This document shows positions 59,683 through 64,000 of a stretch of 64,000 nt of DNA, one piece after another. The stretch comes from Trueperella abortisuis (GTDB lineage: Bacteria > Actinomycetota > Actinomycetes > Actinomycetales > Actinomycetaceae), in contig NZ_JAUSQL010000001.1 in the NCBI RefSeq assembly GCF_030811095.1, positions 248,001 through 312,000 of the forward strand, written 5' to 3'. Position 1 is the first letter of the stretch, and each line of letters opens with the position of its first letter. The notes below the pieces were generated by a model, which saw only the letters and a list, made by a program, of their open reading frames with translations, was not told the DNA's origin and made no database searches. The translations under genes and the position numbers were made by a program.

Positions 59683-59767
59683 GGAGGATTCGCCTAGTGG
59701 CCTATGGCGCTCGCTTGGAAAGCGGGTTGGGTTAACGCCCTCGGGGGTTCGAATCCCCCATCCTCCG
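59683..59767 (+). tRNA. tRNA-Ser (anticodon GGA)
   Basis: An 85-nt class II tRNA. The acceptor arms GGAGGAT and ATCCTCC pair, the anticodon loop reads CTTGGAAAG with GGA at 59717-59719, there is a long variable arm, and the T-loop is GGTTCGAATCC. CCA is not encoded (the sequence continues GCAG). Its 3' half is the likely attachment site of the integrated element that follows. Confidence 0.95.
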
Positions 59768-59785
59768 CAGATTGCCCCTTCCGGA

Positions 59786-59805: not shown

Positions 59806-59876
59806 CGTTGTGTTTTCGCGGTTTTGGCCTATAAGCCTCAGAACACACCAGAAAACACCGCCGGGCACTACCCTAA

Positions 59877-59919
59877 GGGGTACAAACCGGGGTACAAACC
59901 GAAACGCAAAGGGGTACAA
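59877..59919 (+). repeat. GGGGTACAAACC repeats: candidate integrase arm-binding sites
   Basis: GGGGTACAAACC occurs twice in tandem (59877-59888, 59889-59900) and GGGGTACAA once more (59911-59919), just before the integrase start. Short iterated sites beside an integrase gene and its attachment site usually bind the integrase N-terminal domain. The role is inferred. Confidence 0.6.
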
Positions 59920-59937
59920 CAAAATGCGTGAATTCTT

Positions 59938-61273
59938 GGGTTAATAGACAAAAAATGTGTCTTATCCGGGCGTGTCGTTAGTGTCCTGCCCAGCCTTGGT
60001 GGATGGTCAGGCCGTCGTCCCAGGGGGCTTGGGTGTTGATGGCGTTGTCGATGTAGGCTGGCCCGTCGGGCTCAGGTTCGGGTTTGGGCTTGGTGGTGGC
60101 GGGGGTGTTGTTGATGAACGTGGCCAGGGGTTGGGGGTCGATGGAGCGGGTGTAGAGGAAGTAGTCCAGGGCGGTCTTCATGTGCTCTTCGGATAGGCCG
60201 CGGTGGGCTCGTAGGTAGGTCTTCAGCACGGCGTTCGTCCCGCCTTCTAAGGAGTTCGTGGTTGAGGCCAGGGGGCTTGTCGCGCCTGTGGTGGGGTCGA
60301 GGTAGGTAAAGAGCACCCCGGCCTTGACGTAGCCGTCTAAGGCTCTGACCAGGCGCCTGGTGGCGTGGTGGGTATACCACCAGGACTTGTTGTTTTGGGC
60401 AAAGCGCGGGATCTGTGAGGGGGCGACAGTGGCCTTGTAGGTGCGTTCGGCCAGCCAGGTGTCGTAGAGGGTGTGGAAGGCTGCGAGGCCTTTTTGCCAG
60501 GCGATGGCTTGGTCGGCGGTGGTGATCTTGGTCAGGTCCAAGGCCAGTTTGTATAGGGCCTTGTGCTGGTCGGTCTTGGGGCGGGTGGTGGTCAGGGTGC
60601 GGATGTTGCGCTGGATGTGGACTAGGCACCGTTGCAGGCGGCTGGTAGGCCAGCAGGCCTTGATCGCGGCCAGGGCCCCGCGGTCCCCGTCGGTGGTGCC
60701 ACGGCCGGAGCAGGGATACGCGACAGTAAGGCCGTGTAGGCGGCTTTGGATTCTTTGGCGCATAGCTGGTAGGCGATAACACCGTCAGTGGTAGCCGCCA
60801 CCAAGACGCACCAGCCGTGAGCGATGTAGGTCCCGTCGATGAAGATCTGGTCATGAACCTCTCCGGTGATGTCCCAGATCGGGCGGGTATCCCAACACCA
60901 AGCGTGATCGCGATCCCACGTCCGAGTAGAGCCGGTTAGGCGACGTTTGGGTTCAGTGTCGGTAATGAATTCAACGAATTCGCGGAACTGTTTTTCGCGT
61001 TGCTGGCGCCGATGAGTGCTGGTGAAGCTGTGGCCACAAGCCGGGCATCTCCAGCGCTGCCGGCCAGCACTCGTTGAGCCGTTCTTCTTCGTGGCGGTCT
61101 GACAAATCGGGCAGCGGCGGGCGTGCGGGTTTGGTCTTCTCACCCCATGCACGTAACCGGGCAGATGTCAACGAAGCAACCACTTTCAGCGTCTCAACCT
61201 TAAGAACCCTGACTTTCCCTTATTACACCAACGAAAAACTCGATCATAAAACACATTTTTTGTCTATTGACCC
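59938..61273 (-). mobile_element. IS256-family (IS1249-type) insertion sequence, 1336 bp
   Basis: The 28-bp ends (59938-59965 and 61246-61273) are inverted repeats with 26 matches, reading GGGTYAATAGACAAAAAATG inward. The element is flanked by an 8-bp direct repeat GAATTCTT (59930-59937 and 61274-61281). The ends and duplication length suit the IS256 group. It contains one transposase gene on the minus strand, now frameshifted. Confidence 0.93.
59978..61152 (-). pseudogene. IS1249-type transposase, frameshifted
   Basis: The N-terminal part (61152 to about 60705) has a zinc ribbon CPICQTATKKNGS...CPACGHSF and the first catalytic Asp in IFIDGTYIAHG. The C-terminal part (frame of 60763-59978) continues TDGDRGALAAIKACWP, the second Asp, and CLVHIQRNIR, with the final Glu in TNSLEGG. 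The two halves are in different frames and join near 60700, in CCGTGGCACCACC. There is no homopolymer slippery run, so a mutation (or a sequencing error) is likelier than programmed shifting. Confidence 0.85.
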
Positions 61274-62352
61274 GAATTCTTCGGCTCAATCGTCCCCCGC
61301 AATGGCCGCCACCACGGCCGCTACCGACACCAAGGAAAGGAATATTACACACCCACCAGACGCACCAAGACCGAAGTCAGAAACGACCTCACCAAAATCC
61401 ATGCCGCCGTCCTCGACGGCACCTGGCGACCCCCACACAGCCGGCGCACCCCACCCACACGTACACTTCGACAATGGCACGACCAATGGATGCGCGACCT
61501 TGAACTCGCCGGATACTCACCCAACACGCTACGTTCCTACAAGACGCACTGGCACGCCCACGTCCTGCCGAAGCTGGGGGAGTCCACGGATATGGCCATG
61601 CTGACCACGGGGATGATCGAGGACTTCCTACGCCAGGTCCAGGCTGACACCTCGCTGCGCACCGCCGGGAACGTGGCACGCTCCCTGTCGGCAGGTTTGA
61701 ACGCGGCACATGACAAGGGCCAGCTCGAGGTCGTGCCCGCGTTCCCGAAAGGCTGGAGGAGGCGCCCCACCGCCCGCCGCACAGCCACTATCACCTACAC
61801 GGCCGACCAGTTGGATGCGCTCATCGCTGCGGCTCAGGAGCGGTACCGGGCAGCGATTGTGCTTGGATCGTATGCTTTCCTGCGTTCGGGTGAGGTCACA
61901 GCCCTGCGCCGTAACGACATCACCGACGCCGGTGTGCGTGTGGATGAGGCGACCAAGACAGAGCCGGGTGGGCGCACTGTCATCGCGCCACCCAAAAGCG
62001 TGGCAGGGTACCGTACCGTCCCTATCGCCGCGCGTTACCAGCGCATCATCGCAGAGCATCTTGAGCGCTTTGTGCCACCGGCACCTGCCTCGTTGCTCTG
62101 GGCGACGCGCGATGGTGGCCCGGTGCGCTCCCGTGTCCTCCTCACGGCTCTGCATGCGGCCTGTGAGGCTGCTGGCCTACCGAAAGGCCGGTTTCACGAT
62201 CTGCGTCACTCTGGGCTTACCTTGTATGGGCAGGCGTGCGCCACACTCGCGGAGTTGATGGCGGCGGCTCGGCATCCGGATGTGGATGCGGCGATGATTT
62301 ATCAGCATGCTGGGCAGGCGCGGGCGATCGAATTGGTGGAGCGGATGGGCGG

Positions 62353-62568
62353 CTAGGGCTGGAGATCGGTTCGGGCGCCACGTCCGGGCCGGTTTACCTG
62401 CCAGTTGTCGATGGTTTCCGGTAGCCAACCAAAAGTGCAGCCTTTGCCTTGGCCGAGTTGGGCGTCGGGTTCAGGGAGTCGGCCGTCGGCTTGGTAGGTG
62501 CGGATTGTTTGGTAGGAGATACCGATTCGTTCGGCGAAGCCGCGCAAGGTGAGGTAGATGGTGGTCAT
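62353..62568 (-). CDS. Excisionase-like HTH protein
   Basis: The 71-aa protein has a MerR/AlpA-type helix-turn-helix: LRGFAERIGISYQTIRTYQA then GRLPEPDA and a wing. Small proteins like this next to a tyrosine integrase often direct excision or control integrase. Its stop overlaps the integrase stop tail-to-tail by 3 nt. The start ATG is inside the end of the 53-aa upstream gene (ATGA overlap). Confidence 0.8.
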   Translation of the reverse strand: MTTIYLTLRGFAERIGISYQTIRTYQADGRLPEPDAQLGQGKGCTFGWLPETIDNWQVNRPGRGARTDLQP

Positions 62569-62726
62569 CGGGTTTTCCTCCTTGTGATGCCGTAGGCGGT
62601 GGCGAGGATTGATAGAGCCCATAGGGTGGCGGTGACTAGATTTATTCCTATGGCGTAGGTGCCTATGGTCAGGATTGCCCAGGTGGGGGCGGAGGCGCGG
62701 AGCGTTTTACGGGTTTGGTCTTCCAT
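62565..62726 (-). CDS. 53-aa membrane protein of the element
   Basis: An unlisted small gene: MEDQTRKTLR, then a hydrophobic stretch (residues about 14-47, one or two helices) and a basic end ITRRKTR. GAGGAAC lies before the ATG, and its stop TGA overlaps the start of the HTH gene (ATGA). Coupling to the HTH gene and the clear ribosome site support it being real; function is unknown. Confidence 0.6.
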   Translation of the reverse strand: MEDQTRKTLRASAPTWAILTIGTYAIGINLVTATLWALSILATAYGITRRKTR

Positions 62727-62927: not shown

Positions 62928-63323
62928 CTAACTATACCCGCACCCCACACCAATATCATGGGTTGCGGGTATAGTTGTCTGTGTGTCACACCTCAAGCCC
63001 TCCCGATAAGCCACCACCCACACCGGCACACCAAGCTCCTCAGCGATCGCCGCAACATCACACCCATAGAGGTGCTCAGCGAGGATGTACTCGGCGGGTG
63101 AGACTAGTAGACGGGCGGCCCGCCGATCCACGCGGGCCTCTATGTGCGCCTCCTGCGGCCCATCATGACCCAGGGTGGCATGAACATACTCATGAGCCAC
63201 CTCCACCGGCTGGCGGTCCACCGCCCTCGACGGGCCGCCCCTGCGGTGGCTCACCGTACGCGCCGACTGGGGGTCAAGAAACGGCCCCGAATGGTCCGAA
63301 CACGTCGAACGGCTCGAGACCAT
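62928..63323 (-). CDS. immA: ImmA/IrrE-type metallopeptidase
   Basis: The 131-aa protein has the zinc-protease motif HEYVH in VEVAHEYVHATLGHDG, then EARVDRRAARLLVSPAEYILAEH, and ends in ELGVPVWVVAYREGL. ImmA proteases cut phage- or ICE-type repressors to induce an element. ATG 63323 is a plausible start but has a weak ribosome site, and the N-terminal part is shorter than usual. The first 40 residues overlap another coding-looking frame on the plus strand. Confidence 0.65.
   Translation of the reverse strand: MVSSRSTCSDHSGPFLDPQSARTVSHRRGGPSRAVDRQPVEVAHEYVHATLGHDGPQEAHIEARVDRRAARLLVSPAEYILAEHLYGCDVAAIAEELGVPVWVVAYREGLRCDTQTTIPATHDIGVGCGYS
62930..62976. promoter_or_regulatory. 13-bp perfect inverted repeat with TATAGT in each arm
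   Basis: AACTATACCCGCA (62930-62942) and TGCGGGTATAGTT (62964-62976) are perfect inverted copies separated by 21 nt. Each arm contains TATAGT pointing outward, so the site could be a divergent promoter pair bound by the element repressor. The minus-strand arm is about 45 nt upstream of the 26-aa peptide start. It also lies inside the end of immA. Confidence 0.55.
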
Positions 63324-63375
63324 ACACCGCCGCTGGCAGACCGCCTGCGAACCACCCAGCGAGATATCGGGGCAC

Positions 63376-63654
63376 TTGTGTCCGGCTTGCGGCAGGGCGA
63401 ACCTGAACTGGGCGCACAAGAACCAGCTCTACCGCTGCCCCGCCTGCGACTACGCCGGCACTCTCGAGCACGTAGCTAATCTACGCGCCTACGTCATCGC
63501 TCATGGTGACGTGTGGGTCAGTCGTGACATGGCTTGCGCCCTGTTTGGGCTGACTCGGGAAGGGCTGAAGAAGCATATTCAGCGTGGAAATCTTCACCCG
63601 CGTGAGGGGTTGTTTTCGACTGTGGCGTTGCGTGGCTTGCCAAGGCGCACCTAG
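63376..63654 (+). CDS. Zinc-ribbon/HTH protein (5' end unclear)
   Basis: From TTG 63376 the frame encodes about 92 residues: a zinc ribbon CPACGRANLNWAHKN with CPACDYAG, then an excisionase-like helix-turn-helix VSRDMACALFGLTREGLKKH. Upstream the same frame stays open to 63196 and reads like protein (RWLTVRADWG, EWSEHVERLETIHRRW) but has no start codon, so the gene may be a 5'-truncated phage-type protein. Confidence 0.55.
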   Translation: MCPACGRANLNWAHKNQLYRCPACDYAGTLEHVANLRAYVIAHGDVWVSRDMACALFGLTREGLKKHIQRGNLHPREGLFSTVALRGLPRRT

Positions 63655-63809: not shown

Positions 63810-64000
63810 ATGAAACCTACCTCGTCGAAACGCACATCTTCATCGAGTCCAGAAATCTCACGCCGCCCGATCGTAACCGCCATCCTCGTCGATGGAGGCT
63901 TTTACAGAAAACGTGCGTACTCCCTGTTTGGTGACAAAAGTCCTGAAGAACGTGCCGAAGAGCTCCTAGAGTACTGCCGTAGACACATCCGGAAATCTCG
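63810..64000 (+). CDS. NYN-domain (LabA/DUF88-like) protein, 5' part
   Basis: The first 63 residues run past the window edge. After a Ser/Thr/Arg-rich start comes AILVDGGFYRKRAYSLFG, the opening of an NYN/LabA-type nuclease fold, where the Asp of LVDGG is a metal ligand. Such proteins are predicted RNases or nucleotide-binding regulators. AGGAGAAGCA before the ATG is a good ribosome site. It belongs to the integrated element, but its role there is unknown. Confidence 0.65.
   Translation, partial: MKPTSSKRTSSSSPEISRRPIVTAILVDGGFYRKRAYSLFGDKSPEERAEELLEYCRRHIRKS

Follow-up and report, generated by a model that had tools for sequence, protein, structure and literature searches.

A probable left-end prophage stump at tRNA-Ser(GGA) of Trueperella abortisuis with an insertion sequence in its integrase gene

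The window analyzed here is a stretch of 64,000 bp from Trueperella abortisuis (contig NZ_JAUSQL010000001.1, positions 248,001 to 312,000). Near its right end it carries a tRNA-Ser(GGA) gene followed by an interrupted tyrosine integrase gene and a short series of small phage-related genes, the last of which runs past the window. The features are listed in Table 1; genomes and loci are designated by G and L numbers, respectively.

Table 1. Features of the tRNA-Ser(GGA) locus (window numbering; TSD, target site duplication; IS, insertion sequence).
Feature	Position	Strand	Evidence or remark
tRNA-Ser(GGA), host gene; 3' end is the presumed attL core	59683..59768	+	ARAGORN; 56-bp att repeat of the same tRNA in G011
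Three copies of GGGGTAC shortly before the integrase gene	59877..59917	+	Candidate arm-type sites (putative function)
Integrase 5' fragment of 4 2/3 codons with the start codon; contains the first TSD copy GAATTCTT (59930-59937)	59924..59937	+	Homologous starts in L015, L024, L025
IS1249/IS256-type insertion sequence, 1336 bp	59938..61273	-	Transposase family match, termini, seven full genomic copies including the window copy
Transposase pseudogene, overlapping ORFs 60622-61152 and 59978-60763	59978..61152	-	1-bp deletion near 60699
Second TSD copy GAATTCTT	61274..61281	+	
Remaining integrase frame, residues 5-362	61280..62356	+	First start codon at 61490
Small MerR-like HTH protein, possible excisionase	62353..62622	-	PF00376 E=2e-4 (below gathering cut-off); PHROG 597 DNA-binding E=2e-22; PHROG 66, 575 excisionase E about 1e-5
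IrrE/ImmA-like metallopeptidase frame; changed, in comparison with L015, by a deletion inside it	62928..63419	-	PF06114, PHROG 87
Zinc-ribbon-like protein, 92 codons	63376..63654	+	Family match not found; 5' end probably truncated
NYN-domain phage protein, extends past the window to 64604	63810..64000	+	PF01936, PHROG 5783

The IS within integrase codon 5 (59938-61273) is bracketed by identical 8-bp copies of GAATTCTT at 59930-59937 and 61274-61281. Of 200,000 positions drawn at random from the window, 12 showed an 8-bp match at equal spacing. The terminal inverted repeats of the window copy comprise 28 bp and are 93% complementary; its ends are shared by the six further full copies of the genome. 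Terminal inverted repeats and an 8-bp target duplication are traits of the IS1249-type family. The two transposase pieces cover consecutive parts (2-152 and 147-374) of the IS1249 model NF033544, which is 382 long. The respective matches reached E=5e-50 and 8e-65, corresponding to 170.8 and 219.4 bits, each piece alone scoring under the whole-protein cut-off of 300 bits. Additionally, the second piece matched Transposase_mut of the Mutator family (E=1e-5). The 1-bp frameshifting deletion is private to the window copy and absent from all six other full copies. With its transposase frame not intact, the window copy is defective and not autonomous.

The 2.45-Mb single-contig genome contains seven full copies of this IS plus shorter pieces, with variation among the seven confined to 7 alignment columns. 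Perfect 8-bp duplications were found at four of them, namely L001 (the window copy), L004, L005, and L006, and not at L002, L003, and L007. The full 396-codon transposase frame is open in L002 and L003; L004 to L007 have a common in-frame stop (a TAG, as deduced from the base change common to them). The latter four copies (genome positions 1795240, 2283413, 1567822, and 343697) carry this common stop, yet they occupy separate sites, three with their own 8-bp duplication, a pattern which suggests movement in trans or read-through. Copies L003 and L006 lie in the same orientation (genome 1564564-1569159) with about 1.9 kb between them; a scan of 1.5 kb of this interval revealed only three ORFs of at least 80 codons, the longest having 153. 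Instead of an 8-bp duplication, L003 has 14-bp repeats at its flanks, with an offset of one base. Within the genus, an IS match was obtained in five of the nine genomes examined, the own genome included. Genome G099, which is classed as the same species, has four IS pieces of 140-744 bp, all 100% identical to the window IS and located at contig ends or elsewhere. The plasmid records searched with the IS gave no match. The IS family has multiplied in this Trueperella-like genome, which is IS-rich.

Downstream of the IS, the integrase frame 61280-62353 is open over 358 codons and is then closed by a stop. A length of 362 codons for the integrase is the arithmetic sum of these and the four complete upstream codons, in agreement with the 362-codon allele L015 described below. 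The end of the IS puts a TGA in frame at 61268, ahead of the remaining integrase frame, and the first ATG, GTG, or TTG past this stop is the ATG at 61490, which is integrase residue 75. The integrase cannot be translated from its own start into the remaining frame, given this TGA and the position of the next start. No purine-rich ribosome-binding site was seen in the 20 bases preceding 61490. The window integrase is a pseudogene of the phage tyrosine integrase family.

An integrase allele free of an IS within the gene is present in G099, on a 5061-bp contig identical to contig JALEWQ010000108.1 of the Trueperella sp. MAG SUG403. This allele (L015) has a 362-codon frame and 94% protein identity to the window integrase over residues 5-362. 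L015 is itself broken by a nonsense codon, a TAG at codon 209, which lies three residues past the first catalytic arginine. Between the two same-species alleles, 41 synonymous and 24 non-synonymous differences were counted, giving a dN/dS of 0.20. The host gene PPK2 has an equal dN/dS of 0.20 between the genomes of these alleles; therefore, the integrase was under constraint during most of the history of the alleles, and its decay is recent. Between tRNA and integrase, G099 has an IS1249-family transposase gene of 377 codons (E=6e-145); the two contigs that cover this interval (end of L055, start of L015) share an exact overlap of 141 bp. The element there ends in TTTTGGCCTATAAGCC; the same 16 bases also occur at window positions 59822-59837, where they are possibly a relic.

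Integrase matches were obtained in 55 of the 99 genomes searched, the own genome included. The N-termini of the G011 and G001 integrases (MAREHFGSI, 46% identity, and MARALFGSI, 41% identity) aligned to the window start, and both genes are located just after a tRNA-Ser gene. An integrase fragment from G043 is 47% identical over residues 5-128, and L015, L024, L025, and the fragment L034 align with the window integrase from residue 5. A close relative in G054 (L028, G054:C1:1268142-1271591) was recovered as three separate pieces next to a tmRNA gene, with 44-48% identity in the two main ones; apparently, it is another broken copy, at another kind of attachment gene. The viral contigs scanned with the integrase contained no relative, and a search of solved-structure sequences returned one weak match, XerH (E=0.008).

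The integrase matched PF00589 with E=1e-9. Its residues were compared in a 28-row alignment of the own sequence, L015, and 26 relatives with loci at hand, the remaining homology-search matches being left out; rows that are incomplete or begin in another frame number at least three (L028, L034, L038). The catalytic letters R-K-H-R-H-Y are all present as R206, K243, H310, R313, H336, and Y345, the roles of which we take to be those known for the family. Residue 324 is Cys in the window integrase and Gly in 26 of the 27 other rows, the remaining one having a gap. Residue 335 is Arg; here 25 of the 27 other rows have Gly, one relative (L040) has Arg, and one row has a gap. To judge from this alignment, the changes at the near-invariant glycines 324 and 335 are possibly damaging to the integrase body, and Arg335 may be tolerated, as L040 has Arg too.

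Several statements of the first-pass annotation of this DNA can be assessed from these data. It had described an integrase split at codon 5 by 1336 bp of IS and formerly continuous over 362 codons; the start at 59924, the two TSD copies, and the borders of the IS bear out the former, and the insertion-free L015 allele, with its one internal TAG, the latter. Likewise, the ORF from 61490, beginning at residue 75, does lack the N-terminal region. Naming this region the arm-binding domain went further: none of the domain models gave a match within the first 60 residues, and the label would apply by position and homology only. The description of the gene as exactly restorable with all catalytic motifs holds for the six catalytic letters and is overstated with regard to the replaced glycines 324 and 335. 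Relatives lacking the upstream five codons, or a joined frame devoid of homology over the N-terminal 60 residues, would have contradicted the annotation; instead, relatives carry the upstream codons and align from the N-terminus.

We then considered the attachment site. In G011, the 3' end of tRNA-Ser(GGA) is repeated over 56 bp at a distance of 35.8 kb downstream, and the repeats enclose phage-like genes (read by eye). In G001, a second copy of the tRNA-Ser(GCT) 3' end, 15 bp in length, lies 37.5 kb downstream. The GGGGTAC repeats also recur in relatives, with three in L015, two in G001, and a single mismatched one in G011. A search of the window genome for the 17-bp tRNA end, allowing up to two mismatches, returned only tRNA-Ser(GGA) itself and tRNA-Ser(TGA). 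No second att copy (attR) was found within 44 kb downstream or in the whole genome, beyond the tRNA-Ser genes; the att repeats of the two relatives measure 15 and 56 bp, and a shorter or more diverged copy could escape this search. A tRNA scan of 19 integrase loci in other genomes revealed tRNA-Ser within 0.5 kb at six (L024, L025, L026, L029, L034, L039), another tRNA or tmRNA at nine, and none at four; members of the wider integrase family do not as a rule lie by tRNA-Ser. Among the four closest integrases, those of G011, G001, and G043 lie by tRNA-Ser and that of G054 by tmRNA. The element might thus not be a tRNA-Ser element at all, with the integrase near the tRNA by chance, as could be argued from the att repeat missing in the window genome, from the short tRNA-integrase spacer that differs between the two same-species alleles, and from the 13 of 19 loci, G054 beside tmRNA included, that have no tRNA-Ser nearby. 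We regard such a coincidence as very unlikely in view of the six loci with tRNA-Ser at 0.5 kb or less, which include three of the four closest relatives, and of the att repeats of the adjoining tRNA-Ser in G011 and G001. From these comparisons, tRNA-Ser is plausible as the attachment gene of the window element, and this part of the first-pass annotation can be retained.

The sequence beyond the integrase was followed past the end of the window. After the NYN protein, a second small protein is encoded which is similar to the first HTH protein and has no family match. A stretch of 172 bp near 63195 is present in L015 and absent from the window; as judged from this comparison, its deletion probably truncated the zinc-ribbon gene at the 5' end. 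The counterpart of this ORF in a second prophage of the genome has 218 codons (resemblance by eye). At 65466 (extended window numbering), an HNH gene is cut after 11 codons. Directly past this stub lies an 86-bp IS end (genome 313467-313552), and dnaX, which starts at 65587, is followed by the host genes recR, aspartate kinase, and asd. The phage part amounts to about 4.4 kb, IS excluded; packaging and structural genes were not encountered, the HNH stub being followed by host genes. The second prophage (1.89 Mb) has a similar HNH gene, located ahead of the small and large terminase genes; hence, the part beyond the HNH gene is what the window element lacks. The right-end deletion is deduced from these missing parts; in SUG403 the contig stops shortly past the HNH gene, and a search of G099 gave no match to dnaX.

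The second prophage (L082, genome about 1.886-1.900 Mb) contains, in addition to the HNH and terminase genes, a helicase gene and a 959-codon primase-like ORF, the middle part of which may be an intein (read from the translation). Relocation of the missing right half to the HNH copy at 1.89 Mb was considered and rejected: this region is a different prophage, similar only in short stretches.

The distance between tRNA-Ser(GGA) and dnaX was compared within the genus, with G003 left out and the G099 contig ending before dnaX. It is about 0.2 kb in G002, 0.5 kb in G006, 1.1 kb in G004, 3.0 kb in G007, 4.3 kb in G005, and 5.8 kb in the window genome; the spacing in G002 is presumed to be the empty arrangement. 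In G001, dnaX was not found within the 12 kb fetched. The interval of G007 contains sequence resembling the integrase upstream region, then an IS end, and that of G006 a GGGGTAC-like sequence; neither genome gave an integrase match. A 10,338-bp contig of G005 (L057, C3) has tRNA-Ser(GGA) at both ends in opposite orientation, with another copy on C2, an arrangement which may be an assembly artefact.

Taken together, the locus is very probably the left-end stump of a prophage at tRNA-Ser(GGA) that has an IS in integrase codon 5 and has lost its right end in an IS-linked event, either change immobilizing it. A prophage would have integrated at the 3' end of tRNA-Ser(GGA) by means of its own tyrosine integrase. 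An IS1249-type element would have transposed into integrase codon 5, duplicating 8 bp; with the start severed and an in-frame stop supplied by the IS end, integrase expression would have been lost. A separate deletion, presumably linked to an IS, would have removed the prophage sequence that starts inside the HNH gene and runs to the right attachment site, and would have joined the stump to dnaX, and the internal deletion would also be part of the decay. IS insertion and right-end deletion are possible in either order, and either event is enough to immobilize the element.

The first-pass annotation had held that the IS strands the tRNA-Ser element. We consider it very improbable that the insertion alone grounded a complete, otherwise functional element: the integrase is indeed cut at codon 5 with its six catalytic letters kept, but a second attachment copy was not found in the genome, the phage genes end at the 11-codon HNH stub next to dnaX, and the near-invariant glycines 324 and 335 are substituted. 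Since the right end is missing, as seen from the unfound att copy and the HNH stub, the element would be immobile whatever the state of its integrase; the statement that the IS is the cause of stranding finds no support in this form. The annotation had also called the insertion fairly recent. This agrees with the present comparison, in which a comparatively recent insertion is supported by the IS-free L015 allele of the same species and by the near identity of the seven IS copies.

Precise excision and reversible switching are known for some IS256-family insertions; our literature search for a precedent of precise IS256 excision found none. A switch of this kind, in which precise excision turns the integrase back on, would be served by the perfect 8-bp TSD and by the full-length transposase frame of L002 and L003, but the transposase of the window copy is itself split, and an active integrase would find no element to cut out, given that the right attachment site was not found. 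We regard such a switch as exceedingly improbable here, and the decayed stump remains our reading.

The integrase is broken in two same-species strains, by the IS in the window genome and by the nonsense codon in SUG403. Furthermore, G006 and G007 have only relics at the tRNA-Ser(GGA) site, and the G054 relative lies in three pieces. That these independent breaks and relics reflect repeated selection for immobilizing prophages at these sites, as opposed to neutral decay, appears unlikely. The case is one of routine prophage decay in an IS-rich genome, which is of a well-understood kind. It adds one decayed prophage and a multiplied IS family for a Trueperella-like genome and corrects the idea of an element stranded by an IS alone; consequences past genome annotation are small.

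With respect to known systems, the window integrase shares homology over most of its length and the catalytic letters with the tyrosine integrases of actinobacterial temperate phages. It is 29% identical to that of Actinomyces phage xhp1 over 99%, and about 26-29% identical to mycobacteriophage integrases among the best 25 of 112 records; unlike in these phages, the window gene is interrupted and its N-terminus severed. The IS resembles the IS1249 family of the IS256 group (NF033544) in its consecutive transposase matches, 8-bp TSD, and size of about 1.34 kb, whereas the window copy differs by the 1-bp deletion splitting its transposase. In Helicobacter pylori, 145 of 298 genomes were found to have insertion sequences in the prophage (PMC11321410). 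A review describes 'grounded' or cryptic prophages immobilized via damage to recombinase or attachment site (PMC6379469). The window element is the same in having lost excision through damage to both recombinase and attachment site, and it differs in that what remains is a very short stump, which has IS sequence in the integrase as well as at the right border.
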